Source: a virus
Direction: 5' to 3' (one strand)
Length of the DNA: 36,021 bases
Virus record (IMG/VR): IMGVR_UViG_3300014962_000024
Coordinates: 1-36,021 of that record
This document shows, piece after piece, positions 4,075-34,545 of this stretch. The translations under genes were made by a program, and so were the position numbers. Position 1 is the stretch's first letter. Every line of letters starts with the position of its first letter. The notes under the pieces were generated by a model. It made no database searches. It was given only the letters and a program-made list of their open reading frames with translations, and was not told the DNA's origin.

Positions 4075-5085
4075 TTACTTGATCCGCCCTTCACGCTGAG
4101 CCTCGAAGATCGCCTTCTCGAACTTCAGCTTCTCCTCGTCCCGGCCGTTGTAACGCCCAGCGGCGCAATCGGCGTAGAACTTGGATATTTGAGCGGACGT
4201 GATGATTGGCTTCTCAGCAGGGGCGTTAGTAGCCGCTGCAGTCTTGGCTCTGCCCGGTGCCGCGAAGGTTTCCAGCGGGACTTTGCCGGCCTGTCTGGCG
4301 GGCGTCTCGCTACCTGCGGGACCTTGGTAGGCAGCCTCTTCAGCGAGGAAGCCTTTGAAGAAAGCAGCAACTCGAGGGCCGTCGTGGCGCTCCCATGCTG
4401 CTTTCAGCATATTGTGACGTATATCGCCTGAGTATGGATCAGGCAACGCCAGCCACTGAAGAAACTCTGGATTAACATTCTGGTCGCGCCAACCCGGCAC
4501 GTCGCGGTCAAGCCCGTCCATCATGCGCCCCTGCGCATCTTGTTGGACGTAGTTGCCAACACCATTGAGCTGCGACTTCAAACTCACGATTTCTTCGTCG
4601 CGCTTGCGCAGTTCGGGCAAAAGCTCCTCGCGCGCCTTCTTCGCGACAACCTGCAGGAAGTCCGGCCCGTAATCAGCCTCTTCCTCCGGCGTAATCAGCC
4701 GCTCAGCCCGAAGCTCGTTGCTCGGGACAGTTTTTGGCGTCGTGGCCTGCATCGTGGAGACCAGACGCTCAAGCGACGATATGCGTTCGGCCTGCTGCGT
4801 CAGCGTAGACTGCGCGCGCTCGAACCTGCCCTTCATCGAGTTGTATCGATGCTCCCAACCCTCGTCAGTTACCTGCGGGGTAACTTTTGGCGCTTCCTTC
4901 GGAGCTTCGGCCGTCAGCGGCGGATCGCTCGGGAGCTGCTCAGCCGGCGGCTCTTCGGCCGGAGGCGCTTCACCAGCGTCGCCGGCGTAGGCTTGCTTAT
5001 GCAGCTCTTCGGCGGCGGCCCCCAGCGCTTTCACGGCGTCGGGAATTTTCACATCGGGGTCGATAGGGGAAAAGTTCTTTTTCAC
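4075..5085 (-). CDS. Capsid assembly scaffolding protein, putative
   Basis: The protein is about 336 aa from a GTG start (MKKNFSPID) that overlaps the preceding stop as GTGA and has SD ACGGAG. A longer ATG-initiated reading exists upstream but would overlap the 83-aa gene heavily. Residues 20-75 are acidic and rich in Pro, Glu and Ala. Residues 85-180 form a likely coiled coil (RYNSMKGRFERAQSTLTQQAERISSLERL; EELLPELRKRDEEIVSLKSQL), and the C-terminus is helical and basic. Acidic, coiled-coil proteins directly upstream of the capsid gene are typical scaffolds. It also contains an intragenic copy of the dispersed palindrome (4868-4884). Confidence 0.72.
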   Translation of the reverse strand: MKKNFSPIDPDVKIPDAVKALGAAAEELHKQAYAGDAGEAPPAEEPPAEQLPSDPPLTAEAPKEAPKVTPQVTDEGWEHRYNSMKGRFERAQSTLTQQAERISSLERLVSTMQATTPKTVPSNELRAERLITPEEEADYGPDFLQVVAKKAREELLPELRKRDEEIVSLKSQLNGVGNYVQQDAQGRMMDGLDRDVPGWRDQNVNPEFLQWLALPDPYSGDIRHNMLKAAWERHDGPRVAAFFKGFLAEEAAYQGPAGSETPARQAGKVPLETFAAPGRAKTAAATNAPAEKPIITSAQISKFYADCAAGRYNGRDEEKLKFEKAIFEAQREGRIK

Positions 5086-5333
5086 TTGCGTTTCTCCGTT
5101 ATCTGGTCGGCGGTTTTCAGGCACGTTTCGAACATCCGCAGGAGCGAGGCCGCTTCGCGGGCTCGGCCTTGCGAGATGAAGATCGTGTCTGCCGGCGACG
5201 AGACACACTCGTCACGCCTATGGGTGGTGAGGTTCTTCAGAGCTTCGAGGAGCTCGCCCCATTCTTCGGGGGCTCTACGCGCGACAGTGGCGGCGCGTAG
5301 AGCAATCTGTTTGCCGATCTCTGCTTCGGTCAC
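5082..5333 (-). CDS. Small helical protein in morphogenesis operon
   Basis: An 83-aa, mainly helical protein that starts from GTG (MTEAEIGKQIALRAATVARR). It is linked by four-base GTGA overlaps at both ends, so it is translated as part of a chain from the 65-aa gene to the scaffold. It has no membrane segment. There are two cysteines (DECVSS, FETCLK) but no recognisable domain. Function unknown; such small genes between portal and scaffold are common in podoviruses. Confidence 0.62.
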   Translation of the reverse strand: MTEAEIGKQIALRAATVARRAPEEWGELLEALKNLTTHRRDECVSSPADTIFISQGRAREAASLLRMFETCLKTADQITEKRK

Positions 5334-5527
5334 ATAAACCTACGGAACATCGCCATCATCGGGTCGTTGGGGGTCTTCGGCTGGTTTTTTCCGTAGTTGC
5401 CCATCAACCGTTGCGTAAGGTCGCCACCGAAAATCGTCGCTTTCGCCATGCGGCTGGGCAACGTCTCCTCGGAGACGCACTTACCTTCCTTGTAGGACTT
5501 GAAGCCTTTCGGCTTGCAGCACTTCAT
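5330..5527 (-). CDS. Small basic Cys-containing protein, unknown
   Basis: A 65-aa, strongly basic protein starting MKCCKPKGFKSYKEGKCVSE, with three Cys in the first 17 residues and a Met/Pro-rich tail (PNDPMMAMFRRFM). The ATG overlaps the upstream stop by one base (TAATG) and the stop overlaps the next GTG start. The N-terminal cysteines could bind a metal, but this is only a possibility. No family recognised. Confidence 0.58.
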   Translation of the reverse strand: MKCCKPKGFKSYKEGKCVSEETLPSRMAKATIFGGDLTQRLMGNYGKNQPKTPNDPMMAMFRRFM

Positions 5528-7900: not shown

Positions 7901-8380
7901 ATGGAAGTAGTCAAACTCGAGCCTCAAGACGTGAGCGAGTTGACCTTGCTTAAACTTTCAAGGGAAATTGCCAGAGACATTCATCCAATCGAAACTATAC
8001 TTGAACGCTTCGGAATTGACGCCAATCTATGGGAAACTATACGCCAACTTCCTCGGTTCATCAGCCTTCTTCAGAGCGAACTTGAGGCGTGGCACGGGGC
8101 CGGAAACACCTCCGAACGCGTCAAAATAAAATCTCTCAGCCTCGTCGAAGAACTGCTCCCCGAGATGTATGCGCGCGCCCACGATCCGCGCGAGCCCCTC
8201 TCCGCCAAAGTCGAGCTGCTCAAGACAATCGGCAAATTCGGAGGTGTGGGGGTGTCAAGTTTTGAAGGTGCGATCGGCGAAAAGCTCTCCGTCACGATCA
8301 ATTTAGGGGCCGACAGTCAACTTCGGTTTGAAAAAGACGTTACCCCGCAGGTAATCGAGGGGTCGAATGAGCAAGATTGA
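7901..8380 (+). CDS. Terminase small subunit, putative
   Basis: A 159-aa, mostly helical protein that overlaps the large terminase gene by 14 bases, the usual position for the DNA-recognition subunit that selects packaging sites. Residues 20-65 contain REIARDIHPIETILERFGI, a possible helix-turn-helix-like start. Residues 95-140 read VKIKSLSLVEELLPEMYARAHD and KVELLKTIGKFGG, a helical oligomerisation type region. The C-terminus is beta-like and acidic. The assignment rests on gene order and size. An intragenic palindrome (8339-8355) overlaps the last codons. Confidence 0.72.
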   Translation: MEVVKLEPQDVSELTLLKLSREIARDIHPIETILERFGIDANLWETIRQLPRFISLLQSELEAWHGAGNTSERVKIKSLSLVEELLPEMYARAHDPREPLSAKVELLKTIGKFGGVGVSSFEGAIGEKLSVTINLGADSQLRFEKDVTPQVIEGSNEQD

Positions 8381-9824
8381 GTTCAACGCGCCGCCAACAG
8401 TGGCGCGCTTTATGAAGTCCGAGGCGTTCTTCCGTATCATCGCCGGCCCGGTCGGCTCGGGTAAGACCACCGGATGCCTCTTCGAGCTCTTTCGCCGCGC
8501 CTGCGAGCAAGCGCCAGCGCCTGACGGTTACCGCTACACCCGCTTCGCCATTGTCCGCCAGACTCTGAAGCAGTTGAAGGACACGGTGTTGAAAGACATC
8601 ACCGGCTGGCTGCAGGGCATCGCCGAATACAAGGTGAGTGAGAACACGGTGCATATCCGCATCGGCGACGTTGTATCCGAGTGGCTACTTATCCCCCTCG
8701 ACAGTCCAGAAGATCAACGCCGGCTGCTCTCGCTGCAGCTCACCGGCGCGTGGATGTCGGAGAGTATTGAGATGGACTACACCATCGTTTCTCCGCTCGC
8801 CGGCCGTATCGGCCGTTACCCGTCGGGTAACCTCGGCTCCCCCACTTGGTTCGGCATGATTGCCGACACCAACATGCCGTCCGAGGGCTCGGATTGGCAC
8901 AAGGTAATGACCGAGCCGCCGCCGGACACGCAAGTTTTCATCCAGCCGGGCGGCCTCGAAGACGACGCCGAAAACCTCGAATATCTCGTCCAGACAGCGG
9001 AGACGGTGAAACTTGATCTCAATAACCCTGAACAGCGCGCGGAGCGCCGTGCGCAAGGCCGCACATACTACGAGAGATTTGTTCGAAACAATTCACCTGA
9101 TTGGTGTAAGCGTTATGTTCATGCTCAGTTTGGCGACGATCCTTCTGGCACTGCTGTTTTCCGCGAGAGCTTTAAGCACTCGTTCCACGTCGTCGAAGAC
9201 ATCGAGCCCGTGGCGTCATTCCCCCTTCTCGTCGGACAAGATTTCGGGCGCGACCCCTGCTCAATTATTTGCCAGCTCGATCATCGGGGACGCCTTCTCG
9301 TCTTGGAAGAAGTGGTAGCCGAAGACATCGGCCTCGAGCTCCATATCGAGCGCTCCCTGCGCCCGACGCTGATGAAGGACCGTTACCTCGGCAAGTCGAT
9401 CGCGGTGATCGGCGATCCGTCCGGCGTCGCCAAGAGCTCGATCTACGAAGAAAACAGCTTCGACGTAATGAAGCGCGCCGGCTTCATGGCGTTCCCCGCG
9501 CCGACCAACGACCTTGCACCGAGAATACGAGCCGTCGAGGCGTTCCTCCTCGCCCAGCGCGAGGGCGGCCCCGCGTTCATGATCGACGCCAAGCGCTGCC
9601 CGGTCACCGTGCGGGCGCTCAACGGCGGCTACCGCTTCGCCAAGACGCGCGCCGGCGTGCGCAAGCCCACTCCCGACAAGAATGAATACTCACACATCGC
9701 GGACGCACTCCAATATGCCTGTCTGGCGGCGCACGGCGGCATGGTGGGGATGATCGGAAACAGATTGGGCGGCCGGATGAGGTTCTCCGACCGCCCGAAA
9801 ATCACCAAAGGTGGGTGGACTTAG
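8367..9824 (+). CDS. terL: Terminase large subunit (ATPase-nuclease)
   Basis: The 485-aa packaging motor has Walker A GPVGSGKT at residues 27-34, an acidic Walker-B-like stretch in LTGAWMSESIEMD near residue 130, and a C-terminal RNase H-fold nuclease with GQDFGRDP near 291, GDPSG near 349 and HIADALQY near 443. The three acidic sites (D in QDFG, D in GDPSG, D in IADA) are the expected metal ligands. It cuts concatemeric DNA and drives it into the prohead through the portal. Unusually it is encoded on the strand opposite to the portal. Its stop overlaps that of the convergent HTH gene. It contains a perfect TTACCC-type palindrome (8815-8831). Confidence 0.93.
   Translation: MSKIEFNAPPTVARFMKSEAFFRIIAGPVGSGKTTGCLFELFRRACEQAPAPDGYRYTRFAIVRQTLKQLKDTVLKDITGWLQGIAEYKVSENTVHIRIGDVVSEWLLIPLDSPEDQRRLLSLQLTGAWMSESIEMDYTIVSPLAGRIGRYPSGNLGSPTWFGMIADTNMPSEGSDWHKVMTEPPPDTQVFIQPGGLEDDAENLEYLVQTAETVKLDLNNPEQRAERRAQGRTYYERFVRNNSPDWCKRYVHAQFGDDPSGTAVFRESFKHSFHVVEDIEPVASFPLLVGQDFGRDPCSIICQLDHRGRLLVLEEVVAEDIGLELHIERSLRPTLMKDRYLGKSIAVIGDPSGVAKSSIYEENSFDVMKRAGFMAFPAPTNDLAPRIRAVEAFLLAQREGGPAFMIDAKRCPVTVRALNGGYRFAKTRAGVRKPTPDKNEYSHIADALQYACLAAHGGMVGMIGNRLGGRMRFSDRPKITKGGWT
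8815..8831 (+). repeat. Intragenic palindrome inside terL
   Basis: GTTACCCGTCGGGTAAC has perfect 7-base arms around GTC. It encodes RYPSGN in the large terminase, and the repeat starts at a different codon phase from copies in other genes. It is one of the cleanest members of the dispersed TTACCC/GGGTAA family. Confidence 0.8.
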
Positions 9825-10042
9825 GCCGCCTCATCCGCTGGCTTCACCACGCTACTCGCGATCCACTCATCAACGTCAGTTTTTCGGTAAAAAATCGACC
9901 GTCCCAGCTTAGCGTGTGCTGGGCCTTTGCCCGCCGCGCGCCACATGGACAGCGTGTGCTTCGTCACGCCCAGCAGCGCCGCAACGTCATCGGGGGTCAT
10001 TATACCGATTGCAATGCGAAGTTCTTGAGTATCGCCGCTCAT
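9821..10042 (-). CDS. HTH DNA-binding protein, AlpA/excisionase-like
   Basis: A 73-aa single-domain protein. TPDDVAALLGVTKHTLSMWRAAGKGPAHAKLGRSIFYRKTDVDEWI matches the MerR-like winged HTH (HTH_17) pattern of AlpA regulators and phage excisionases: helix-turn-helix, a 'GKGP' wing and a final 'Y...DVxxWI'. Such proteins control excision or early transcription. No integrase is visible, so a regulatory role is as likely as excision. It is convergent with terL (stops overlap) and has SD GGAG before ATG. The upstream region holds four 11-bp phased repeats that it could bind. Confidence 0.75.
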   Translation of the reverse strand: MSGDTQELRIAIGIMTPDDVAALLGVTKHTLSMWRAAGKGPAHAKLGRSIFYRKTDVDEWIASSVVKPADEAA

Positions 10043-12086: not shown

Positions 12087-12171
12087 GTTAGTCAATTTTC
12101 AAACCACCTAAAAATTGACCTTTGCACTCCCGATAGGCGGGCGCTGCAATGTTACCCAAAGGAGTAAACTC

Positions 12172-12864
12172 ATGACCATCAGCAATCAAGTTGACACGTT
12201 CGAAGCCGTCATGAAAGACGTTCGCAAGTTTGGCGAAACTGGCGGCGCTGGCGAAAACGCCCGCGCCAATATGTATATTCGCCTCGTTCGCGGCGCTGCG
12301 AATGGCGTCGTCGATACGATCAAACGTGATGCTACTGGTAACGAAGTCGCCAAAGGCGGGCGCGACCATGCCGACATAGCGTATGACGCCTATGTGGCAG
12401 GGTTTGCCAAAGGTAACGGCCATAATGCCGATACCAAAGCGACAAAGACCGCCGCATTGCGGGCGGGCATCCGTCTAGGTCAGACGCATGGCGACGACGC
12501 AATCGAACTGATGAACCGCACACACGTCCTTTACAAGGAACTGGAAGGGACAAAAGGTCGCGTTCAACCGTTCGAAGCGTTCTATCGTGTGAGCTTGGCG
12601 CAAGCCAAGTCGACGACGCGTCTCACGGATGATGAGTTGCGGGCTTGCATCGTGCGCGATCCGGCGGAACGCGACGCTGCGGCATACTTGCGCACGGCAG
12701 TGAAGGCGCTTGAGAAGGCGTGCTCGCTCGACGATACGGACGACGCGCGCAATGCTCTGGAAGCCACGCAACGGGCGCTTGCCGCTTACATGGCGGAAGA
12801 GCAGAAAGCGAAAGACTTGGCGGCGCTTGCTGAATTGCAGGCGCGGCTGGGGATTGGAGCCTAA
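12172..12864 (+). CDS. 230-aa soluble helical protein, unknown early gene
   Basis: The start is the ATG at 12172, preceded by TTACCCAAAGGAGTAAACTC, one of the best start-associated motifs; the frame is open further upstream but has no ribosome site there. The 230-aa protein begins MTISNQVDTFEAVMKDVRKFGE, has no membrane segment, and ends in a long helix (ALEATQRALAAYMAEEQKAKDLAALAELQARL). The middle has VLYKELEGTKGRVQPFEAFYRVSLAQ. I recognise no domain. It is the first sizeable gene of the rightward region and is closed by a strong terminator, so it is its own transcription unit. Confidence 0.65.
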   Translation: MTISNQVDTFEAVMKDVRKFGETGGAGENARANMYIRLVRGAANGVVDTIKRDATGNEVAKGGRDHADIAYDAYVAGFAKGNGHNADTKATKTAALRAGIRLGQTHGDDAIELMNRTHVLYKELEGTKGRVQPFEAFYRVSLAQAKSTTRLTDDELRACIVRDPAERDAAAYLRTAVKALEKACSLDDTDDARNALEATQRALAAYMAEEQKAKDLAALAELQARLGIGA

Positions 12865-12874
12865 CAAACTAATA

Positions 12875-12909
12875 ACCCGGCTGGGTAAAAATCCCGGCCG
12901 GGTGTTTTT
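12875..12909 (+). terminator. Strong Rho-independent terminator
   Basis: Arms ACCCGGCTGGG (12875-12885) and CCCGGCCGGGT (12893-12903), eleven pairs with one G-U, loop TAAAAAT, followed by GTTTTT. It ends the 230-aa gene's transcript. Its U-tract is also the beginning of the 18-base inverted repeat at 12905-12960. Confidence 0.85.
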
Positions 12910-12960: not shown

Positions 12961-13538
12961 TTTGAAACCGTCAACCCGAACCGTGTATGTGAACTTAAAG
13001 TAACGAGGTGAAGTATACAATCTAAGTTGTTGTAAGTATGTGAGTTTGTTAGGTTAGTGTGGCAGCATGTCGCACCCCATCGGGCCGGACACAGGCGGCA
13101 GCCGACGTGCGGAATTGCGTGTAAGCCATTGATTTTGTTTGGCTTGTTTTTGGTGAGTGTATAAGTGGTTGTTATTATATATATATATATATGTATTTGT
13201 AAATTCTAAATTCTAATTTTATTTTTTCTAGGCTGTGGGCCTTCTAGGTCAACTCAAGGTTGGCCGGAGGTTGTCAGCGTCCGCTCTATTCCCCGCTCTA
13301 AAACGGATTTTTCGCCGAGAATTAGGTAATAAACCTAAAACCCTAACACCATCAAACACTTACACACCAAAAAAATACATGTCGGTTGTAACGAAAAATG
13401 AATGTGAACACTTATCATAATCAAACACTTAGAAACAAAATATAATACGAAGCAACCTTCGCTATACTTTGAGAATAACCCACAAATCACTTCGTATTAC
13501 TCGCGAGGGTAAACTTTCGCACCCAAAGGAGCGCACTC
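12961..13538. other. AT-rich non-coding island with iteron-like repeats (candidate origin)
   Basis: There is no convincing gene in nearly 580 bases. Contents: a (TA) run around 13174-13192; ATCAAACACTTA at 13351-13362 and 13420-13431 with a relative TGAACACTTA at 13405-13414; the inverted repeat TAATACGAAG (13443-13452) / CTTCGTATTA (13490-13499); CGAAG-CAAC-CTTCG (13449-13462); and AGTATAG on the minus strand at 13462-13468. A 61-codon frame (13235-13420) has no ribosome site. The AT island, direct repeats and adjacent large dyad together resemble a replication origin or a major promoter region. Confidence 0.5.
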
Positions 13539-14048
13539 ATGCCTGCCGACGTGACGGCGACGACTATCAATCAACTCGCCGACCTGCTCACCTATAACGC
13601 TCGCACGGGCGCGCTCCTCTGGCGTGCCGACAAGCGGCCGGCTACCCGTGAGAGTAACGGGCGTCTGTTCATCTATGCGATCAGACGCCCGTTTTATGCT
13701 GAGAGGGTTGCGTGGCTACTCGCCAAGGGTCATTGGCCGTCGCGCATAACCTTCATGAACGGCGACAAGACCGACCTGCGCATGTGTAACCTGCGCATAC
13801 TCTCCTCTGCCGAGTTGCGAGACTTGCGGCGGCAGTTTCAGGAGGAGGCGTCGCGCGTCGCCGCCCGAAAGCGCTCATCCTTACCCCATCGGGTTATCGA
13901 GTGCCGGGAGACGGGGCTGTTTTATGCTCGCGTAATTGTGCGAGGGGAGATCAAGGTCTCTCCCAAAGTTCGCACCCCTGAAGAGGCGCGCGTGCTGCGC
14001 GACGCCATGCTAACCCGAGAGGGTAACGATGCAAGTAAACGGCTATGA
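13539..14048 (+). CDS. Degenerate HNH / AP2-type homing endonuclease-like protein
   Basis: The 169-aa protein follows the phage HNH pattern: LLTYNARTGALLWR, then VAWLLAKGHWPSRITFMNGDKTDLRMCNLRIL. In active relatives the motif is IDHINGDxxDNRxxNL, where His is catalytic; here that position is Phe72 and the final Asn of DNR is Leu. The C-terminal part (IECRETGLFYARVIVRGEIKVSPKVRTPEEA) fits an AP2-like DNA-binding module. So DNA binding may persist while cutting is lost. SD AAAGGAG precedes ATG. It overlaps the pentapeptide gene by 20 bases. Confidence 0.72.
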   Translation: MPADVTATTINQLADLLTYNARTGALLWRADKRPATRESNGRLFIYAIRRPFYAERVAWLLAKGHWPSRITFMNGDKTDLRMCNLRILSSAELRDLRRQFQEEASRVAARKRSSLPHRVIECRETGLFYARVIVRGEIKVSPKVRTPEEARVLRDAMLTREGNDASKRL

Positions 14049-14643: not shown

Positions 14644-14667
14644 CACCCTAACACCCTAACACCCTCT
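14636..14667 (+). repeat. Four tandem 8-bp repeats (CACCCTAA)
   Basis: CACCCTAA occurs three times and a variant CACCCTCT once, running from the last codons and stop of the pentapeptide gene into the spacer. The same CTAACACCCT string appears after other stop codons (15093, 20800, 25405, 30506). It may be slippage-prone relics of the start-associated repeat's left arm. Confidence 0.75.
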
Positions 14668-14685
14668 AACCCACAGGAGTAACCC

Positions 14686-14874
14686 ATGACCGGGGACTTG
14701 CAAGACTGGTTGGACTGGGCCGCTTACCATCCAACCTACAGCGTGCCGACCTACACACCCACACAAGGCGCATGGTCCAAACCAAGATCGGTTGACGAAC
14801 TGCTTGCCGAACTGTTTCGCTGCAACGACAGCGAGTATGGGCTGATCTGGGACGCTATGTTTTTCTGGCCGTAA
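14686..14874 (+). CDS. 62-aa acidic Trp/Tyr-rich protein, unknown
   Basis: MTGDLQDWLDWAAYHPTYSVPTYTP... is an acidic, aromatic-rich protein of 62 aa with no membrane segment. The motif AACCCACAGGAGTAACCC sits directly before ATG and gives strong support for the start. It lies in a string of tiny genes that all use the same ribosome-binding module. No known family. Small acidic phage proteins often inhibit host enzymes, but nothing here shows that. Confidence 0.65.
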   Translation: MTGDLQDWLDWAAYHPTYSVPTYTPTQGAWSKPRSVDELLAELFRCNDSEYGLIWDAMFFWP

Positions 14875-14889
14875 CCCGGAGAGGTAACG

Positions 14890-15172: not shown

Positions 15173-15198
15173 CGTTCCTACCCAAAGGAGTAACCACC

Positions 15199-15636
15199 AT
15201 GTCAGCTTGGCTTTGTTCACAGGACCACATCAACCTGATCGTCAATGCGTCCGATGATCCAAACGAGGAGACTTTCAAATTGCTGCTTGAGGAGAACCTC
15301 AAGAGCTTGCGGTATCGCTATCCGGGGCGTGACTTCCTACAAGAGTGGGAGGACGCGGCGAAGTCGTATCAGTTCGAGCGCATTGCGCCGATCGACCTGA
15401 TCCAGCGCGTCTATGCCGAGCAGCGAGACCTTGCCAAGGGTTACCCCGCAGTTACCCAAGGAGTAACGCTGGAGCGCGTCCGTGCACAGATGCGCCAATC
15501 GTGCGCCAGCTTAGACTATCAGTCGTGCGAGCACCCCGAATGGGAGACGAGCAAGGCGCACGCAATCGTGCATGGCGTTATGAACAACACCCCTGCAAAC
15601 GAGCGACTTGAGAACGAAGCGCTCTGGTCGTTCTAA
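15199..15636 (+). CDS. 145-aa conserved-type phage protein, unknown
   Basis: MSAWLCSQDHINLIVNASDD... resembles small phage proteins I have seen starting 'MSAW..s..Hi..lv', but I cannot name the family. It is mixed helix, soluble, with four Cys (CSQ, QSCASL, YQSCEH). The start follows CTACCCAAAGGAGTAACCACC. The gene carries two tandem intragenic copies of the repeat motif (15441-15467, encoding YPAVTQGVT). It begins a long run of tiny genes. Confidence 0.65.
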   Translation: MSAWLCSQDHINLIVNASDDPNEETFKLLLEENLKSLRYRYPGRDFLQEWEDAAKSYQFERIAPIDLIQRVYAEQRDLAKGYPAVTQGVTLERVRAQMRQSCASLDYQSCEHPEWETSKAHAIVHGVMNNTPANERLENEALWSF

Positions 15637-15652
15637 CCCCACGGAGTAACTC

Positions 15653-15922
15653 ATGCGCCCCCCGACCCCCCCGCGCCCCAGACTTGGAGAGCGGTATCGC
15701 TTCGTATCATCCGCACCATGGCTTGGTGGGTATCCGTGGACTGAGCATGCCGATAATACACACTTTGGGCAGATAGCGCGGGTGCTACGCTACTGCGTGC
15801 AAAGCGACGACCAAATAGACGTGGCATACCCCGAGCGCTGCTGCTGGATTGTATTCGGTGACGGATACATCACCGTTGCCGGGGATAGAGAGTTGATACC
15901 AATAACTAACCCAACGGAGTAA
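15653..15922 (+). CDS. 89-aa protein, paralogue of the 17366 gene
   Basis: A beta-rich small protein of 89 aa. LGERYRFVSSAPW..., IARVLRY..., WIVFGDGYITVAGDRELIPI is the same plan as 17366-17623 (GGRYQYNYVSPW..., CRILRR..., YVVFDDGYITVASSEGELCPL). This looks like duplication followed by strong divergence. The shared end (VFxDGYITVA..EL.P) is the best conserved part. Function unknown. Start motif TAACCCCACGGAGTAACTC. Confidence 0.65.
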   Translation: MRPPTPPRPRLGERYRFVSSAPWLGGYPWTEHADNTHFGQIARVLRYCVQSDDQIDVAYPERCCWIVFGDGYITVAGDRELIPITNPTE

Positions 15923-16131: not shown

Positions 16132-16146
16132 CCCATAGGAGTAACC

Positions 16147-16504: not shown

Positions 16505-16523
16505 ACTAACCCCGGAGGGTAAC

Positions 16524-25120: not shown

Positions 25121-25408
25121 ATGACGATGGACGACGCAGACATTGCGTTTTTGTTCTCGCTACCGCCCAAACTCGAGAAGCTCTTCCGCCTGCTGCTGCT
25201 GCACTCGCGGGTCACCACCGCGATGATAGTAGCTGAGCTCGGCGCTAAAGCAGATGCGAAGATGACCATCTTCCGCTTGCGCAAGTATCTCGCAGAGAGC
25301 GGGCACGAAGTCGACATCAAGTCAAAACGCCACCTCGGTTATTGGATCGAGCGGGACGACAAAAGTCGTCTGATGGAGAAGATGAACATTACTCTGCCAA
25401 GTAACTAA
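25121..25408 (+). CDS. Winged-helix DNA-binding protein (OmpR-type wHTH)
   Basis: A 95-aa protein consisting of one wHTH: LEKLFRLLLLHSRVTTAMIVAELGAKADAKMTIFRLRKYLAESGHEVDIKSKRHLGYWIERD. The end (IFRLRKYLAxxG...IxxxxxxGYWI) matches the recognition helix and wing of OmpR/PhoB C-terminal domains (hisRLRrKL, vRGvGYrl). It has no receiver domain. It is the first gene after a near-consensus promoter with AGTATAG repeats and could be an autoregulator or the binder of the dispersed palindromes; the latter is speculation. No obvious SD (AAAGAGTGTTCG). Confidence 0.75.
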   Translation: MTMDDADIAFLFSLPPKLEKLFRLLLLHSRVTTAMIVAELGAKADAKMTIFRLRKYLAESGHEVDIKSKRHLGYWIERDDKSRLMEKMNITLPSN

Positions 25409-27369: not shown

Positions 27370-28840
27370 AGAGATTACCTTTCAGGGTAGGTCGCTCGTC
27401 GCCCTGCCGCACACGCCGACTGAGACGTTCCTCCTGCGGCAGCTCGGCTACGACGCGCCGGCTCCGATCCTCGTCAACTACGACTGGCCCGGCCCGCAGC
27501 CGCCGTTCGAGGTGCAGAAGAAAACCTGCGCCATGATGACGATGAACGAGCGCGGCTACGTGCTCAACGACATGGGAACGGGCAAGACGCGCTCCGCGCT
27601 GTGGTCGATCGATAGCCTGATGACCAGCGGCTCGATCCAGAAAGCGCTGATCGTCGCGCCCTTGTCGACGCTGCACTTCACATGGGGCAGGGAGATATTC
27701 ACTGTCCTGCCGCATCGCCGCTTTGCTGTGCTGCACGGTGACAAGACCAAGCGCAAGGCGCTGCTTGCCAATCCCGAGGTCGAGATATTCCTGATCAACC
27801 ACGACGGGTTGAAGGTCATCATCGACGAGATTACCCAGCGGGGTGACATCGACTGTCTGTGCATCGACGAGCTGTCCGTCTACCGCAATGGGCAGTCGGA
27901 GCGCACCAAGACGATACGCGCGTTGGCGTCGCGGATGAAATATGTGTGGGGCATGACCGGCTCGCCGATCCCCAACTCGCCGACCGACGCATGGGGTCTC
28001 GCCTCTGTCGTCACACCTCACACCATACCACGCTACTTCGGTCGCTTTCGTGAAGCGCTGATGACGCGCGTCAACCAATACAAGTGGGCTCCCAAGCAAG
28101 ACGCTGTCGAGCAGGCGTTCGCAGTGCTGCAGCCAGCGGTGCGCTACACGCTGGACGACGTCGTCGAGCTGCCGGAGTGCGTCGAGCGGACGATCGACGT
28201 CGATCTCGGGATGAAGCAGGCCAAGGTCTACAAGCAACTGATGGATCACTGTCATGCAGCAGTCCAGAACAAAGAGATTACGGCGGCTAACGCCGGCGCT
28301 GTCATGTCCAAACTACTCCAAGTCTCGACTGGATGGGTCTACTCTGCGGATAAGGGTGTCGTTCCGCTGGATAACGATAAGCGTGTCCAAGCCCTCATGG
28401 ACATCGTGTCCGATACGGACAAAAAACTCTTGGTCTTCGTTCCGTTCAAACACGCGCTTGCCGGCATCTCCGAAGCGCTTACCCGTGAAGGTTACGAGCA
28501 CGCAGTCGTGTCCGGAGACACGGCCGCGACGGACCGAGCCCAAATTTTCAACCTTTTTCAGAACACGGAAAAATACAAGGTCCTCGCTGCGCATCCACAG
28601 TGTTTGGCGCACGGCATCACCCTCACCAAAGCGACGACCATCGTGTGGTTTGCGCCGGTGATGGACCTTGAAGTGTTCGAGCAAGCCAACCGCCGCATCC
28701 GTCGCGTCGGTCAGAAACTCAAGCAGCAGATCATCATGCTGCAGAGCACGCCAGTAGAGCGGAAAATCTACAACATGCTGCAGCGCAAGCAGAAGGTGCA
28801 GTCGCAACTGCTTGAGCTGTTCGAAGATGCAAGTGAATAG
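27284..28840 (+). CDS. SNF2/DEAD-type DNA helicase
   Basis: The 518-aa superfamily 2 helicase has Walker A VLNDMGTGKT (K101), DEAD-like box IDEL (D195, E196), motif III MTGSP, and motif VI FEQANRRIRRVGQK. Phage SNF2-like helicases remodel replication forks or branched DNA and often stand beside VRR-NUC nucleases, as here. The first ATG overlaps the nuclease gene by 86 bases; a second ATG at 27317 would also fit, but neither has a good SD. An intragenic palindrome occurs at 27831-27846. Confidence 0.88.
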   Translation: MQPTHLAPKHKMIAVPTTTQIKNLFPSAKEITFQGRSLVALPHTPTETFLLRQLGYDAPAPILVNYDWPGPQPPFEVQKKTCAMMTMNERGYVLNDMGTGKTRSALWSIDSLMTSGSIQKALIVAPLSTLHFTWGREIFTVLPHRRFAVLHGDKTKRKALLANPEVEIFLINHDGLKVIIDEITQRGDIDCLCIDELSVYRNGQSERTKTIRALASRMKYVWGMTGSPIPNSPTDAWGLASVVTPHTIPRYFGRFREALMTRVNQYKWAPKQDAVEQAFAVLQPAVRYTLDDVVELPECVERTIDVDLGMKQAKVYKQLMDHCHAAVQNKEITAANAGAVMSKLLQVSTGWVYSADKGVVPLDNDKRVQALMDIVSDTDKKLLVFVPFKHALAGISEALTREGYEHAVVSGDTAATDRAQIFNLFQNTEKYKVLAAHPQCLAHGITLTKATTIVWFAPVMDLEVFEQANRRIRRVGQKLKQQIIMLQSTPVERKIYNMLQRKQKVQSQLLELFEDASE

Positions 28841-28851: not shown

Positions 28852-29103
28852 ATGGAACTGATGATTTTTTCTATGCTGGTGATCGTCGTCGTGTTGATGA
28901 CGTATCTCTTCGTCGAGCAGAGCGTGCTGCGTCGCGTGATGTGGATCGATCCCATCGAACACTGGCAGGAGTATTATGACATGCGAGCTGAGTGGAGTGC
29001 AAAGTTCGACGAGCTCGACGCAAGGCTCGATGCCGAGCTCGCAGAGGAGCAGGGGCCGTTCATGCGCCTCTGGTTCGAGAAGCTGGCCCGCTTCTTCCGC
29101 TAA
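28852..29103 (+). CDS. Membrane-anchored small protein
   Basis: The 83-aa protein has a very hydrophobic N-terminal span (MELMIFSMLVIVVVLMTYLFV, residues 1-21) and a charged, helical, probably coiled-coil cytoplasmic tail (YYDMRAEWSAKFDELDARLDAELAEEQG). It sits between the helicase and the SSB-type genes; SD GGAGAAGAG. It may anchor a replication or host-takeover factor at the membrane. Function not known. Confidence 0.65.
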   Translation: MELMIFSMLVIVVVLMTYLFVEQSVLRRVMWIDPIEHWQEYYDMRAEWSAKFDELDARLDAELAEEQGPFMRLWFEKLARFFR

Positions 29104-29123
29104 CCCAACGGAGTAAACCCACA

Positions 29124-29546
29124 ATGAACGCCCATGTGACCACCACTGAGACCAGCGCAGAGAAGTTCGACGCTGACCGCTACATCCGCGCTTTAATCCA
29201 GCTAAAAGATTATATCAAACAGAAGGACGACGAGCACGAAGAGAGCTTGAAGTCCTATAAAGAGAAGCGCGACAAGCTCGAGCGCCTCATTCTAGGCCAC
29301 CTGCTCGAGAACAACGCGAAGAATGTCAGCACAGATTGTGGGACGGCGTCGGTCTTGCACCGCAAGTCGGCGTCTCTCGAGGACCCCGCAGCGTTTATGA
29401 ACTACGTAATCGAGAACCAAGCGTGGGACCTGATCGACCGCAAGGCGAACGCCAAGGCGGTCGAGGACTTCATCCACAGCAACAACTCCCCGCCGCCCGG
29501 CGTGAAGTTCAGCGACATGCTGACCCTTGGTCTTCGCCGCAAATAA
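29124..29546 (+). CDS. Helical phage protein beside SSB-like gene, unknown
   Basis: The ATG at 29124 follows AACCCAACGGAGTAAACCCACA; the frame is also open upstream. The 140-aa protein is helical at first (FDADRYIRALIQLKDYIKQKDDEHEESLKSYKEKRDKLERLIL), then alpha/beta (TDCGTASVLHRKSASLEDPAAFMNYVIENQAWDLIDRKANAKAVEDFI). Similar two-part proteins lie upstream of SSB-like genes in other phages and are sometimes compared with Gam-type proteins, but no clear motif supports that. Likely part of the replication module. Confidence 0.62.
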   Translation: MNAHVTTTETSAEKFDADRYIRALIQLKDYIKQKDDEHEESLKSYKEKRDKLERLILGHLLENNAKNVSTDCGTASVLHRKSASLEDPAAFMNYVIENQAWDLIDRKANAKAVEDFIHSNNSPPPGVKFSDMLTLGLRRK

Positions 29547-29562
29547 CCCCTTGGAGTAACCT

Positions 29563-30507
29563 ATGAGCAATATCATCCCCGCAAATTTTGGCCGCGCCTC
29601 TTCCAAATTCGCCAGCGTCCAGATCAACAACGACGCCGCTGCCGGCATCGAGAGCGGCTATGCCGTCATGAAATACAAGGGCAAGGTCTGGGCGATGGAG
29701 TATCGCGGCGAGCACAAGCCGATCATGCGCCCAGATGGCGACGGTCCGGCCAACTCGATCGAGGTGGTCATCGTCTCCGCGTCACCTGTCAAGTCGAAGC
29801 TCTACTACAAAGGTTACAACGACGGCGCGAACGATCGTCCGATTTGTTTCTCGTCGAACGGTGTGACCCCCGACCAGCGTTCGCAGGCTCCGCAGGCCAA
29901 GGCGTGCGCCGTCTGCCCGCAGAACCAGCGCGGTTCGCGCGTGGACGAGAACGGTCAGGCGCGCGGCACCGCTTGCCGTGACAACAAGCGCGTCGCCGTC
30001 GTGCCGCTCGCAGACCTGCAGAACGAGGTCTACGGGGGGCCGATGCTCCTGCGCATCCCGGCGGCGTCGCTCAATGACTTCGCCCAGTTCACCACCAAGC
30101 TGGAGCACATGGGCATGCCCTATTGCTCGGTCGGCATGAAGATCGCGTTCGACTCGGAGCAGGCGTATCCCAAGTTCCTGTTCAGCGGTGTGCGCACGCT
30201 GACGGACGAGGAGGCTGACATCATCCTCGAACTGCGAGACAGCCCGCAGGTCAAGCGCATCATCAGCGAGGACAGCGGCACCGCGCCGGTTACCCCGCAG
30301 GTAACGCACGATGACGGCCTGTCAAAGCTCGCCGCGCCGAGCGCCAAGTTTGAGCAGGCGAGCGCGCCGGCCGAGCCCGCACCCGCCGCGAAGAAAGCGG
30401 CCCCGAAGAAGGCTGCAGCGCCGGCCCCGGTCGAAGCCCCGGCCGAAGACGAGGAGCAATCCACCGGCACCTCGCTTGACGACGAGCTGGACGCTCTGCT
30501 GGCCTAA
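29563..30507 (+). CDS. Single-stranded DNA-binding-like protein
   Basis: The 314-aa protein has a beta-rich core (residues 20-210) with a zinc-type cluster (ACAVCPQN ... TACRDNKR), a Pro/Ala/Lys-rich linker (residues 265-295) and an acidic tip SLDDELDALLA. Core plus linker plus acidic tip is the arrangement of phage SSB proteins such as gp2.5-type, where the tail recruits polymerase and helicase. The order SSB then primase-helicase also fits. I cannot show the OB fold from sequence alone. Start motif ATAACCCCTTGGAGTAACCT. Contains the palindrome GTTACCCCGCAGGTAAC. Confidence 0.7.
   Translation: MSNIIPANFGRASSKFASVQINNDAAAGIESGYAVMKYKGKVWAMEYRGEHKPIMRPDGDGPANSIEVVIVSASPVKSKLYYKGYNDGANDRPICFSSNGVTPDQRSQAPQAKACAVCPQNQRGSRVDENGQARGTACRDNKRVAVVPLADLQNEVYGGPMLLRIPAASLNDFAQFTTKLEHMGMPYCSVGMKIAFDSEQAYPKFLFSGVRTLTDEEADIILELRDSPQVKRIISEDSGTAPVTPQVTHDDGLSKLAAPSAKFEQASAPAEPAPAAKKAAPKKAAAPAPVEAPAEDEEQSTGTSLDDELDALLA
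30289..30305 (+). repeat. Intragenic palindrome, same 17-mer as in scaffold gene
   Basis: GTTACCCCGCAGGTAAC lies in the SSB-like gene. The identical 17-mer occurs on the minus strand in the scaffold gene (4868-4884), and with one end change in the small terminase gene (8339-8355). Three unrelated genes thus share it. Confidence 0.8.
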
Positions 30508-30582: not shown

Positions 30583-33519
30583 ATGAGCGATCTCACTCCG
30601 CTACGAGTATTTTTGTCTCGCGTTCTGCCGTGGTCGGACCCGGACGAGCCTCAGACCTACGTCGGCATACACTGGAAACAGAAGGGTCAGTTCAAGGAGT
30701 TCTGGACCGGCCGCGCCGTGCGCAACGTCGACGAGGCGGTTCGCACAATCAACTGGGCGGAACAGCTACCCGACACCCGCGACATCTACATCGCGATGGC
30801 CGCGCAACGTGAAGCCGAGCAGGCGACGTCGAAGGGCGGCCACAACTACCTCAAACCGATCCGCAACCAGACGAACGTCGCCGCGCTCAAGGACCTTTAC
30901 CTCGACATCGACATCAAGGGCGGCGACAAGGGCTACGACGACATCAAGTCGGCGGTCGCCGCGCTGGGCGAGTTCATCAAGGCGATCGACCTGCCGAGAC
31001 CGACCATGCTGGTTGGGTCGGGCGGCGGCGTCCATGCGCATTGGGAGCTCGACCGCGCACTCACGGCAGCCGAGTGGCAGCCGCTCGCCAACGCCCTCGC
31101 CGAAGCGGCCCGGCAGAACGGGCTCAAGTGCGACACGCAAGTCACCGTCGACAGCGCCCGCATCCTGCGCCCGCCGCAGACGAAGAACTGGAAGACCGAT
31201 CCGCCCAAGCCAACTACCCTGCTGGGTAAGGTGGTGGAGGGCGCTTACTCGGTCGAGCGCATCGAGCGCGCGCTGGAGCCCTACAAGACTGTCAGCCATG
31301 CGCCGGCGGTCACCGGGCTGGGTAAGGCGTCGGACAAGTTCGCCGGCGTGAAGAACGACGCCGCCGCCGACATCTCGATGAGCCGGCCGATCGACCTCGA
31401 CGCGATCGCCGCCGAGTGCCCCTTTATTAAAGAGGCGCTGGACACCGGCGGGGCGGACTTCGGTCAGCCGTTGTGGAACCTGTCAACGCTGCTCGCCACC
31501 TTCACAGGCGACGGGCGCGCGGACGCGCACCGCATGGCGGCAGGGCACCCCGGCTACACTGAGGAGAGCACCGACCAGCTTTTCGACCGCAAGCTGCGCG
31601 AGCGCGAGGAGAAGGGGCTGGGCTGGCCGTCCTGCGCGTCCATTCTCAACGCCGGCTGCACGTCCTGCGCCCAGTGCCCGCACCTGCCCAAGGGCAAGAG
31701 CCCGCCGGCGTTTACGCCGAAGCCTGTTATCCCGACCGGCCCGCCGCCGAGCGGGTTACCCGTTGGGTATTCGCACAACAAGGCGGGGTTCATTTGCTAC
31801 CCGAAGATCGACGACATGGGCAACACGCACATGATCCCGCTGTTCGAGTATGCGGTCTCCGACGCGTGGATGCAGAAGGACCCGTGGGTGCTGCACTTCA
31901 CGGCGATCATCCACGACAACATAAAATCCAAGATCGAGATACCTGTCGGATCGATGGCGGCCAAGGACACCTTGGTCAAGCTCCTCGCCGAGAACGGCAT
32001 CTCGACGGAACCATGGCTTGGTAAAGTCATTCAGGAGTTCTTCATGAGCTGGGTTCGCACACTTCAAGCGCGTAAAAATGCAGTAGTAGAGAGTTCACCC
32101 TATGGCTGGAACACCAACCAAGGTCAGATCGACGGCTTCTGTTTTGGAGGTGAGGTCTGGACAATTAACGGCTCAAGACCCGCCCCCAATGCCGACCATG
32201 TTCTGCGCCGGCAGTATCAGCCGACGGGGTCCGCCGACCCATGGCACGACGCCATCAAGCTGATTACCCAGCGGGGTAGGCCGGAGCTGGAGGCGATCGT
32301 CGCTTCAGCGTTCGGCGCACCACTGGTGAAGGCGACGGGCTGGTATGGATCGTTCGTCTCCGCCTACAGCCAAGAGAGCGGCATCGGCAAGACGACCGCG
32401 ATGAAGATCGCGCAGGCGGTGTGGGGCGACCCCGTCACCGCTATGCAGGGGCTAGACGACACCATCAACTCCGTCACCCACAAAATCGGATCGATCCGCT
32501 CGCTGCCGCTCTACTGGGACGAGATCAAGGGCGACGACAATACGAGGAAGTTCGTAAAGCTGGCGTTCCAGCTCACCGGCGGCAAGGACAAATCGCGCCT
32601 CGGCCGCGACGCCTCGTTACGCGAGGTGGGTAAGTGGCAGACGATGCTGGTCAGCGCCACCAATGAGAGCCTCGTCCCCTACATCGCGGCGCAGACATCG
32701 GGCACCACGGCCGGCATCTACCGCCTGTTCGAGATTGAGGTGGCTCCGAAAGAAAAGGTCATCGGCGACGTCGACACCGGCGAGGCGCAGCGGCTGCTCG
32801 GCCGGCTCGATGACAACTTTGGCGTAATCGGGCAGGACTACGCCCAGTGGCTCGGCCAGAACTACAACCAGATCGACGCCGACGTCGGCGAGTATATGAA
32901 GCAGCTCGAGAAGCGCGCCAACATCCGGCAGGACGAGCGCTTCTGGCTCTGCACGATCACCTGCGTTGTGATGGGCGCGCGCTATGCGAAAGAGCTCGGT
33001 CATGCCGACTTCGACGTCGACGCGCTTGAGGCGTTCATGCTGCGCACCCTCGACGCCATGCGCCGGCAGATCAAGGATAGCCATGTCGACCTGACCGAGA
33101 CGCCCAATCTGGTCAACATCTTCACCCAGTTCCTGAAGGCCATGTCCCGCCACACCCTCTGGACGAACCGCATCCCGGTCGGGCGCGGCCGGCCGAAGGC
33201 GGGCGACTACAAAATCCTCAAAGGCGCGACGCTGATCGATGGGCTCCATGTGCACATCGGCAAAGAGGACAAGCTGATCCGGGTCTCAAGCACGCGGTTC
33301 AGCGAGTGGCTCGACGAGCGCCGCATCTCTCGGATGATCTTCACCCGCGAGTTCCACAAGCAGTTCGGCTCGCGCGAGACGAACGCACGGCTCGGCTCGG
33401 GCACCAGCATGGCGCAGAGCGAGGAGTATGTGATCGAGATCAAAGCCGCCGGCAGCCCGCTCGCGGCGCTGATCGACGAAGCCGACGCAGAGGAGACCAC
33501 CGATGACGCGAACGCGTGA
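30583..33519 (+). CDS. Primase-helicase: AEP-type primase fused to DUF927-like ATPase
   Basis: The 978-aa protein. N-terminal half: archaeo-eukaryotic primase-like motifs LYLDIDIKGG (D108, D110), GGGVHAHWEL (H151, H153) and DSARILRPPQTKNWK. Middle: a cysteine cluster CASILNAGCTSCAQCPH near residue 355, a possible zinc site. C-terminal half: DUF927-type P-loop helicase with ESGIGKTTAM (K603), LYWDEIKGDD (D646, E647). It would synthesise primers and unwind DNA for the PolA polymerase. It carries palindromes at 31214, 31756 and 32264. Overlaps the GcrA-like gene by 17 bases. Confidence 0.85.
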   Translation: MSDLTPLRVFLSRVLPWSDPDEPQTYVGIHWKQKGQFKEFWTGRAVRNVDEAVRTINWAEQLPDTRDIYIAMAAQREAEQATSKGGHNYLKPIRNQTNVAALKDLYLDIDIKGGDKGYDDIKSAVAALGEFIKAIDLPRPTMLVGSGGGVHAHWELDRALTAAEWQPLANALAEAARQNGLKCDTQVTVDSARILRPPQTKNWKTDPPKPTTLLGKVVEGAYSVERIERALEPYKTVSHAPAVTGLGKASDKFAGVKNDAAADISMSRPIDLDAIAAECPFIKEALDTGGADFGQPLWNLSTLLATFTGDGRADAHRMAAGHPGYTEESTDQLFDRKLREREEKGLGWPSCASILNAGCTSCAQCPHLPKGKSPPAFTPKPVIPTGPPPSGLPVGYSHNKAGFICYPKIDDMGNTHMIPLFEYAVSDAWMQKDPWVLHFTAIIHDNIKSKIEIPVGSMAAKDTLVKLLAENGISTEPWLGKVIQEFFMSWVRTLQARKNAVVESSPYGWNTNQGQIDGFCFGGEVWTINGSRPAPNADHVLRRQYQPTGSADPWHDAIKLITQRGRPELEAIVASAFGAPLVKATGWYGSFVSAYSQESGIGKTTAMKIAQAVWGDPVTAMQGLDDTINSVTHKIGSIRSLPLYWDEIKGDDNTRKFVKLAFQLTGGKDKSRLGRDASLREVGKWQTMLVSATNESLVPYIAAQTSGTTAGIYRLFEIEVAPKEKVIGDVDTGEAQRLLGRLDDNFGVIGQDYAQWLGQNYNQIDADVGEYMKQLEKRANIRQDERFWLCTITCVVMGARYAKELGHADFDVDALEAFMLRTLDAMRRQIKDSHVDLTETPNLVNIFTQFLKAMSRHTLWTNRIPVGRGRPKAGDYKILKGATLIDGLHVHIGKEDKLIRVSSTRFSEWLDERRISRMIFTREFHKQFGSRETNARLGSGTSMAQSEEYVIEIKAAGSPLAALIDEADAEETTDDANA

Positions 33520-34012
33520 AGAGCTCGACGAGCTCAAGCAGAAGCTGATTGAGTTCCGTGCGCAAGGACTGTCGGAAACCGAGATGGGCGCGCGCCTCGG
33601 CCTGACCAAGAACCAAGTGTCAGGCCACATCAACCGGATGATCCGGGGTTACAAGTCCAAAACCCAATACGCAGCGAAGAAGGCGGCAGAGGCAGCGCCG
33701 GCGCAGGCGGAGTTCGTGCCGCCCACCAGCGGGCCGCGCCCCAAACCCTCACAACCTATCACCCTCGCAGAACTGCCCATCGTCAAAACAGACCTGTCGT
33801 TCGAACCATTACCCGGAAAGGTAAACGTGTGGAACGTCAAACACGGGCAGTGTCGGTGGGTGGACGATGGAGGGTTCTTCTGCGCCGAGCCGACGAGCGC
33901 GCCCACCAAATCCTATTGTAAAACGCACCACCAAATTTGCTTTTATAAACCAACGAAGAAAGTTAATCCGCGATGCAACTCTCTGCCCAATCCATCCGTA
34001 AACTTTGCGTAA
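33503..34012 (+). CDS. GcrA-like cell-cycle regulator homologue
   Basis: The 169-aa protein has an N-terminal helix-turn-helix (ELDELKQKLIEFRAQGLSETEMGARLGLTKNQVSGHINRMI) and a C-terminal block QCRWVDDGGFFCAEPTSAPTKSYCKTHHQICFYKP. This matches GcrA: N-terminal DNA-binding domain, Pro-rich linker, and CRWp...fCg....g.pYC..H......P block that contacts sigma-70. In Alphaproteobacteria GcrA activates sigma-70 promoters at CcrM-methylated GANTC sites. The phage version may redirect host transcription. It overlaps the primase and the deaminase genes. Confidence 0.85.
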   Translation: MTRTREELDELKQKLIEFRAQGLSETEMGARLGLTKNQVSGHINRMIRGYKSKTQYAAKKAAEAAPAQAEFVPPTSGPRPKPSQPITLAELPIVKTDLSFEPLPGKVNVWNVKHGQCRWVDDGGFFCAEPTSAPTKSYCKTHHQICFYKPTKKVNPRCNSLPNPSVNFA

Positions 34013-34545
34013 AAGAGCCGCACATGATCTCGCCGTTTGTCGGCGAGAAGGTCGTCGTCAACGGTAAGAGTTATGGGTTGTCGGGAGCGAGTTATGACGT
34101 GCGGATCGCACATGATCTGACGCTCGGACCCAGCCCCGACAAGCTGCTCGCCAGCATGATGGTGCGGAACCGGCAATATACGGCAGAAGCTATTATGGAG
34201 ATGTGGCGGGTCAAGCTCCAGAACCTGCCACCCTCACACGCTCTTGCGCATACAATCGAGGACTTCAACATGCCTACCAACGTCGTAGGCTATGTGTGCG
34301 ACAAGTCGACGTATGCGAGGGTGTTTGTGTCTGCGTTCAACACGCTGTTCGATCCGGGCTTCAGAGGTAACGCGACATTGGAGCTGGTCAATCTTGGCGA
34401 CAAGACAGTCTACATCAAGGAAGGTGATCCGATCTGTCAGTTCACTTTCCACTGGCTCGATGAAGCGACGGAGCTACCCTACTCGGGTAAATACCAAAAC
34501 CAGACTAAAGCAGCGCACGGAGCAAGATATGAAACCAAACGATAA
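33973..34545 (+). CDS. dCTP deaminase / dUTPase-family protein
   Basis: The 190-aa protein follows the dCTP deaminase pattern: LSGASYDVRIAHDLTL, CDKSTYARVFVSAFNTLFDPGFRGNATLELVNLGDKTVYIKEGDPICQFTF, then KYQNQTKAAHGARYETKR. In Dcd enzymes the Glu of TLEL is catalytic and the C-terminal KYxNQ closes the site; both are present. The product would be dUTP or dUMP from dCTP, helping to balance the nucleotide pool for replication. Bifunctional Dcd-Dut activity cannot be ruled out. Starts 40 bases inside the GcrA gene. Confidence 0.82.
   Translation: MQLSAQSIRKLCVKEPHMISPFVGEKVVVNGKSYGLSGASYDVRIAHDLTLGPSPDKLLASMMVRNRQYTAEAIMEMWRVKLQNLPPSHALAHTIEDFNMPTNVVGYVCDKSTYARVFVSAFNTLFDPGFRGNATLELVNLGDKTVYIKEGDPICQFTFHWLDEATELPYSGKYQNQTKAAHGARYETKR

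Follow-up and report, generated by a model that had tools for sequence, protein, structure and literature searches.

This locus raises the question of why one short palindrome should recur throughout a phage genome, inside genes as well as between them. The DNA analyzed, referred to below as the window, is the whole 36,021-base IMG/VR record IMGVR_UViG_3300014962_000024 (GC content 58%), and the palindrome is TTACCC-N3-5-GGGTAA together with its near copies. We tentatively favor reading these palindromes as operators at which a phage-encoded, symmetric dimer would silence transcription, a stoperator-like arrangement that is not a Cluster A stoperator.

Palindromes inside genes and at gene starts

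A preliminary description of the window had counted about 24 intragenic copies of TTACCC-N3-5-GGGTAA. Taken literally, the pattern has four copies, at 2457..2472 (within gene 2045-2650), 3015..3029 (not in a called gene), 8816..8830 (within terL) and 23771..23785 (within the DNA polymerase gene); all window sites are given here without strand. With up to one mismatch over the 12 arm bases there are 30 sites, 24 of them wholly within called open reading frames (ORFs) and six not, and in this form the earlier count stands, with the proviso that 8340, 12152, 14011 and 16299 among the 24 sit at gene boundaries or in questionable ORFs. Spacers of 3, 4 and 5 bases account for 10, 16 and 4 sites, respectively, and spacers of 0 to 2 and 6 to 9 for none. 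A codon-preserving shuffle had been proposed as a check. In 200 such shuffles of the window, intragenic sites averaged 1.25 with a maximum of 5, compared with the 24 observed, and exact intragenic copies averaged 0.07, compared with 3. The same procedure (n = 200) applied to the cultured Rhizobium phage RHph_TM3_14A yielded 2.71 intragenic sites on average and never more than 7, where 30 were observed, and the two sets of shuffles rule out chance or codon usage as the source of the palindromes. Once the pattern is correctly stated, the excess in the window is real and strongly non-random.

The one-mismatch sites are spread over much of the window. They begin at 4869..4883 (within gene 4075-5208) and continue with 8340..8354 (at the end of 7901-8380, just upstream of the terL ATG at 8367), 12152..12167 (just 5' of ATG 12172), 12873..12888 and 13497..13512 (neither in a called gene), 13881..13896 (within 13539-14048), 15452..15466 (within 15199-15636) and 19354..19369 (within 19092-20174). 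Three are found in the VWA-like gene 20776-22074 (21069..21085, 21499..21513 and 21911..21926), and the DNA polymerase gene has two in addition to its exact copy (24073..24089 and 24559..24573). Gene 27284-28840, a relative of an annotated SNF2 helicase, contains 27831..27846, and gene 29563-30507 contains 30290..30304. Four lie in 30583-33519, a putative primase according to the preliminary description (31214..31229, 31756..31770, 32264..32279 and 32617..32633), followed by 33809..33824 in the GcrA-like gene 33503-34012 and 34474..34490 in 33973-34545. Codon phase varies as originally described, even within the polymerase gene, where the site at 23771 is in phase 1 and those at 24073 and 24559 are in phase 0. 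The long identities between unrelated genes were also borne out: 8340 and 30290 have GTTACCCCGCAGGTAA in common, 27831 and 32264 have GATTACCCAGCGGGGT in common, and identical stretches of 16 bases occur in unrelated window genes.

A second, weaker class, which the preliminary description had missed, has the form TAACCC-N3/4-GAGTAA and lies on the ribosome-binding site just 5' of gene starts, mostly in early genes of the window. With up to one mismatch, AACCC-N4-GAGTAA has 24 matches in the window and the version with a spacer of 3 has five, three of them at the same places; every other spacer within 0 to 11 gives zero or one match. Judged by eye, the element is present at about 23 of 40 hand-picked window starts. 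Several of the 30 palindromes are likewise start-associated, namely 14011..14026 (5' of ATG 14029), 16299..16314 (5' of ATG 16316), 16507..16522 (5' of ATG 16524), 16795..16810 (5' of ATG 16812) and 20172..20187 (at ATG 20187). Weaker copies precede the ATG codons at 14686 (14667..14682), 14890 (14872..14887), 15199 (15178..15193), 15653 (15634..15649), 15928 (15907..15922), 17366 (17346..17361), 17811 (17793..17808), 18057 (18039..18054), 19092 (19071..19086; an ATPase gene, called MoxR in the preliminary description), 22264 (22245..22260) and 29563 (29544..29559). Further weaker start copies are at 16129..16144, 16917..16932, 20534..20549 and, at a gene junction, 29101..29116, and a copy of the same form at 18539..18554 has no clear start downstream. 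Most of the one-mismatch window sites, and most of the sites in RHph_TM3_14A, lie away from starts.

Distribution, conservation and dialects across the clade

The motif was also found in many terminase relatives and capsid relatives, 80 of at least 599 capsid relatives being retained for analysis. When the outer core TTAC-Nk-GTAA was counted at each spacing, maxima fell at k = 7 and 8 (8 and 8 matches, respectively, in the window, 5 and 38 in G001, 19 and 49 in G010, 15 and 11 in G006, 14 and 10 in G008, and 14 and 32 in RHph_TM3_14A). Across 885 kb of relative loci, a set that overlaps partly with the other loci analyzed, there were 74 matches at k = 7 and 116 at k = 8, versus 3 to 13 at the other values of k from 0 to 15. 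An unbiased scan with all 256 tetramer half-sites ranked the same palindrome, in some register, first in 26 of 31 records. These records are not fully independent since G006, G007 and G009 are near-identical, and they include weak positives (G003 with five sites, G014 with four) and a distant relative, G022. The palindrome was not ranked first in G011, which has six exact-core copies, or in the outgroups G012, Rollin, KPP25 and BcepC6B, Rollin and KPP25 being covered by their first 50 kb each. The number of sites per genome reaches 43 in G001, 46 in RHph_TM3_14A and 68 in G010.

Among 38 loci of at least 10 kb from the capsid or primase scans, the family half-site ranked first in 19 and not in the other 19; these stretches consist mainly of structural genes, where site density is low. 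The exact TTAC core is absent from five capsid-scan loci of at least 8 kb (L120, L150, L154, L156 and L165), of which L150 carries a GTAACT variant. In more distant capsid relatives within bacterial genomes (at most 56% identity, at least 10 kb), the family half-site came first in one of 47, with five copies and a weak score. The protein encoded at 30583-33519, used as a scan query, found only two relatives. RHph_TM3_14A (loci L080 and L082) carries the motif as a cultured phage. The Bradyrhizobium loci L199 and L200 stand for a phage-sized contig of 60.6 kb in strain Rp7b and an apparent integrated prophage in Bradyrhizobium sp. 139; in an 8.7 Mb Bradyrhizobium genome, 18 of 34 TTAC-N7-8-GTAA matches are on the one 60.6 kb phage contig. 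Judged from these sequences, the motif is a clade-wide trait and some clade members infect root-nodule bacteria.

Site positions are conserved, with turnover. The 4869 site keeps all 12 arm bases in L006, has one change in L008 and is lost in L009, and the terL site at 8816 is present in L005 through L009, with a variable center and one arm change in L007. Sites often hold their position at 75% DNA identity. For a formal comparison, a site was counted as kept if all eight outer arm bases were retained, and the expectation was taken from same-frame shifted controls. Between two Bradyrhizobium phages, 9 of 12 aligned sites were kept versus 1.7 expected (7 of 12 versus 2.0 in the reverse direction). 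Other pairs behaved similarly: G001/G002 (4 of 4 versus 0.5), G006/G008 (6 of 11 versus 1.8; reverse, 7 of 14 versus 2.3), window/L006 (3 of 4 versus 0.9) and RHIZ/BR28 (2 of 3 versus 0.2). Conservation was not significant for window/L007 (1 of 2), window/L008 (2 of 4), G011/window (1 of 2) and RHIZ/BR27 (1 of 3). Alignment of relatives, the other check proposed at the outset, gave a divided answer: the palindromes are conserved in several pairs and not in others, and among the lost sites seen in five close relatives none cleanly lacks the unit.

The unit that recurs is a half-site of the type GTTACYN, present as an inverted pair whose six-base arms are three to four, sometimes five, bp apart. 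Bases were tabulated for 20 records with a search pattern that itself fixed the core TAC and required C or T next. In most of these records G is the most frequent base at position -1 and T at position 0; T at 0 is weak in some (0.45 in G021, 0.49 in G025 and 0.51 in G020). The two bases 3' of TAC form a lineage dialect: CC in the window, TT in G001 and G002, TC in G016, CT in RHph_TM3_14A and both Bradyrhizobium phages, and CA or CT in G023.

Placement within genomes is also uneven. In RHph_TM3_14A, 30 of the 46 sites are intragenic and 16 lie outside genes, where 5.3 would be expected (P 3e-5). In six genomes with module borders set by hand, early genes contain 150 sites in 175.4 kb and late genes 69 in 173.2 kb, a roughly twofold difference. 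Gaps of less than 200 bp between sites number 15, versus about 57 expected, when summed over 16 records. This spacing apart is strong in G010 (0 versus 12.7), G001 (0 versus 5.8) and RHph_TM3_14A (1 versus 6.2), and is absent in G018, G020 and G005.

A predicted operator system and its competitors

We infer that a phage protein binds the palindromes as a dimer and silences transcription, so that the sites would be predicted operators. In this scheme, operators at densities of up to about one per kb, each made of two inverted GTTACYN half-sites, would be recognized by a phage-encoded symmetric DNA-binding protein. By occupying early genes, ribosome-binding sites and the interior of long genes, the protein would block or slow RNA polymerase, and the phage genome might thereby be silenced while it is a prophage and perhaps also early in infection. 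Joint drift of the protein and its operators would produce the lineage dialects. A dimeric protein with many targets is suggested by the symmetric half-sites, their independent variation, the dialects and the selection acting inside genes. Among the three options offered in the preliminary description (dispersed operators, RNA structure elements or a spreading repeat), dispersed operators are the one that fits.

Several clade members have features of temperate phages. Nine related records contain a tyrosine integrase, among them a near-identical trio and the distant G022; the gene adjoins an HTH_17 gene after terL in G002, G006, G007, G009, G011 and G013 and is elsewhere in the genome in G015, G019 and G022. 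Most of the records searched for integrases may be fragments. In Bradyrhizobium sp. 139, 22 of 43 matches fall in an apparent prophage split over two contigs, the last phage gene of which encodes a large serine recombinase of 576 residues (PF07508, PF00239). What follows it looks, by eye, like host genes, and the flanks (the initial 29 kb of one contig and 25.2 to 42 kb of the other) are free of sites. This copy appears to be an integrated prophage. The RHph_TM3_14A record has attL and attR features, and its relative of the window 30583-33519 protein is labeled a putative integrase, a label that PF00589 and PF00239 searches did not support. As a separate observation, the window has a gene-poor stretch after terL, at 9821-12150, the place where several relatives have a tyrosine integrase. 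The L006 integrase, a 378-residue ORF, had no window match at E 1, and a remnant of 45 residues is found in L005.

Candidate binders were sought by iterated profile searches with all annotated RHph_TM3_14A proteins, a design that a binder outside the annotation would escape and that covered Rollin and KPP25 within their first 50 kb. The families g010 to g014, g016, g018 and g028 are present in all five of the window, G001, G006, G008 and G010 and in none of four outgroups, and all except g028 sit in the capsid and packaging block. The g028-family gene of the window (12172..12864, plus strand, 230 residues) is the first candidate, singled out by distribution only, and is our best guess for the binder gene; EVB41_028 belongs to the same family. 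When the search was widened, g028 turned up in 25 related records; it was not found in G003 and G014, both fragments, or in G017 and G018. The family matched no Pfam or PHROG family above chance, with only weak scattered hits. Its predicted structure is helical, with a predicted local distance difference test (pLDDT) score of 86 for the full model and 91 for the N-terminal domain alone. The g028 profile searched against PDB sequences gave a best E of 0.028, to a chain named PS1, and the full model matched PDB folds that were helical, mostly coiled coils. Against BFVD, the full model had two matches with E below 0.001, one as long as the Rhizobium phage protein, and we take both to be probable members of g028's own family. 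The N-terminal domain model had no Foldseek match at E 0.001; VIA matches reached Z 5.6, with sigma-factor matches at Z 3.1 to 4.5 that we treat as a likely reflection of a common helix arrangement. No tyrosine recombinase fold was matched by the g028 models, although a missing match excludes nothing, and g028 is a candidate binder only.

Helix-turn-helix products of the phage had been suggested as possible binders in the preliminary description. The small protein at 25121..25408 (plus strand) looks winged-helix-like by reading and is kept as a second candidate, with EVB41_062 as another member of its family. Pfam gave it only Trans_reg_C at E 0.2, without confirming a winged helix, and its family was not found in G010, the genome with the cleanest motif. 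The HTH_17, excisionase-like protein at 9821..10042 (minus strand), whose counterpart adjoins the integrase gene in six relatives, was rejected as a universal binder because it was not found in motif-bearing records (RHph_TM3_14A, G001, G008 and others). Of 22 records, 8 have HTH_3 (5 of these over the cut-off) and 13 have HTH_17, so neither is universal. A more far-reaching possibility, which we regard as doubtful, is that this clade, which includes rhizobial and temperate phages, has a symmetric operator code written into coding sequence across the genome and read by a repressor of undescribed fold (the g028 family), with the dialects defining immunity groups.

A number of results weigh against silencing operators. 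Many sites are inside late genes, and positional conservation fails for window/L009 (1 of 3), G023/BR27 (0 of 1) and G001/RHIZ (0 of 1). The sites are also kept in the window, G001, G008, G010, G016 and RHph_TM3_14A, where searches with PF00589 and PF00239 detected no integrase. A rigid dimer would not ordinarily accept arms spaced anywhere from 3 to 5 bp apart, and a symmetric site, unlike a Cluster A stoperator, has no direction to align with transcription. For g028, the PDB, BFVD, Foldseek and VIA searches gave no match suggestive of DNA binding, and its divergence is not significantly correlated with dialect (Spearman 0.14, Mantel P 0.13). Dialect correlates instead with the proteins encoded at 27284-28840 (0.59) and 30583-33519 (0.55), and more weakly with terL and other proteins. 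Since dialect is tracked by proteins other than g028, phylogeny alone may explain the dialects. They could also follow the host: GTTACCT is common to the three records whose hosts are known, and those hosts are all rhizobia.

The strongest competitor, possible though in our judgment improbable, is that a phage protein folds, condenses, marks or segregates phage DNA through the palindromes. Such genome-organizing sites would be consistent with the avoidance of clustering in several genomes and with the presence of sites in both early and late blocks and in integrase-negative records. The twofold early-gene bias, the non-genic excess in RHph_TM3_14A and the start-associated class point instead to gene expression, and together with ribosome-binding-site overlap and the apparent prophage they favor silencing over pure genome packing, without being decisive. 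Partition of the ParB/parS type was rejected, as none of 18 records yielded ParB_N, though fragments among them could hide one.

It is unlikely that the palindromes serve a host protein, recombination or DNA processing, as Chi-like or modification-linked marks that the phages have accumulated. A dense short motif spread genome-wide in coding DNA would suit such a role, as would the GTTACCT shared by the Rhizobium record and two Bradyrhizobium records. The 8.7 Mb Bradyrhizobium genome is, however, not rich in the motif, which has 16 of its 34 matches off the phage-sized contig and is rarer overall than a backward control (34 versus 117).

RNA hairpins controlling translation or RNA processing are a highly unlikely explanation, even though palindromes with short spacers could fold and the start-associated copies overlap ribosome-binding sites. 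Covariation between arms was examined in seven genomes, with strands assigned by hand and near-start sites excluded. At position 5 the arms are approximately independent (A-C, 27 versus 32.5 expected; G-U, 19 versus 18.9), as they are at position -1 (G-U, 23 versus 21.4; A-C, 20 versus 18.2), and such independent variation would be expected from two protein contacts rather than from base pairs. Position 4 differs, with Watson-Crick pairs above expectation (102 versus 73.3) and G-U pairs (sense-strand T..G; 27, expected 43.6) outnumbering A-C pairs (C..A; 11, expected 23.3). Pooling of dialects can yield a Watson-Crick excess at this position. Of seven records, six have mostly non-pairing one-mismatch sites, the exception being G001 (20 G-U of 35), and the start-associated TAACCC..GAGTAA form is unpaired at two of six positions. 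We conclude that the palindrome is read as DNA, position 4 being the one point against; RNA hairpins were rejected as the main explanation, and the RNA element of the preliminary description fits poorly.

A short mobile or spreading repeat (REP-like), or sequence gained via template copying, is scarcely credible despite the 16-base identities in unrelated genes, because in five close relatives, the only ones compared, the unit is never cleanly missing from a lost site, substitutions and several small gaps being found instead, and because sites are kept in alignable coding DNA and their arms change by lineage dialect.

Resemblance to known phage repeats

Scattered operators are familiar from other phages and from plasmids, examples being the phiC31 inverted repeats and the KorB sites. 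The predicted operators can be compared more closely with four published systems. The nearest published case in form, among those found, is the palindrome of Corndog and other Cluster O mycobacteriophages, TGTTCGG-N3-CCGAACA. The report describes 34 copies of this 17-bp repeat, with a short spacer and about one-third of them intragenic, and leaves its function unexplained; the arms are invariant and the 3-bp spacer is fixed across five close mycobacteriophages, from which no lysogens were recovered (PMC4351075). The repeats are mostly in similar places in related phages and are sometimes lost by point changes, and the authors suggested a dimer (PMC4351075). The likeness consists in many copies of one inverted repeat, a large share of them inside genes. 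Unlike that repeat, the element described here has a GTTACYN half-site with 3 to 5 bp between its six-base arms, dialects and up to 68 copies, and it comes with a start-associated class, integrases and an apparent prophage, in phages that are apparently of another group.

The Cluster A (L5) stoperators are described as 20 to 30 repressor sites per genome, with sequences that diverge between related temperate phages; they are asymmetric, 13 to 14 bp long, bound by a monomer, oriented with transcription and situated in promoters and short intergenic gaps (PMC6550527, PMC9283540). At least 20 sites per phage genome are likewise found in RHph_TM3_14A, G001 and G010. In contrast to stoperators, the sites here are inverted repeats and, in RHph_TM3_14A, mostly intragenic despite the non-genic excess, and Cluster A membership fails because of this symmetry and location. 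The start-associated sequence (SAS) of Cluster K is an asymmetric 13-mer at the translation starts of a subset of genes (PMC3203893), and the TAACCC-N3/4-GAGTAA class at early-gene starts is similar. Unlike SAS, the start class resembles a degenerate form of a palindrome found elsewhere in the genome, and most sites are off starts. SPBRE of Bacillus phage SPbeta was first spotted by sequence analysis and is bound at about 10 promoter regions by MrpR, a phage master repressor with a tyrosine recombinase fold (PMC10516654). The element described here was likewise noticed from sequence alone; a tyrosine recombinase fold was not seen in the models of candidate g028.

No prior report of the GTTAC palindrome in these phages was found in titles and abstracts, subscription papers and preprints being outside that search. 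Scattered palindromes themselves are already in print for Corndog and its relatives, without lysogens (PMC4351075). The present set adds a clade-wide element, a cultured member on Rhizobium, an apparent Bradyrhizobium prophage, natural dialects and a short candidate list, and such a clade makes the role of scattered palindromes testable. Selection at the DNA level inside essential genes also bears on how codon usage and conservation are read in phages.

Some minor features were recorded. The product of window 14029-14643 (204 residues) has a pentapeptide-repeat look by eye, with a 15-base tandem pattern in the DNA, and that of 33503-34012 matches Pfam GcrA, a cell-cycle regulator, at E 1.7e-10. 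The segments 34510-34669 and 35093-35261, at two neighboring gene starts, are a partial duplication with an identical 46-base block. Locus L210, a Candidatus Magnetomicrobium contig, carries an unrelated palindrome, TGCG-N4-CGCA, in 22 copies, partly in 24-base tandem steps, with a REP-like appearance.

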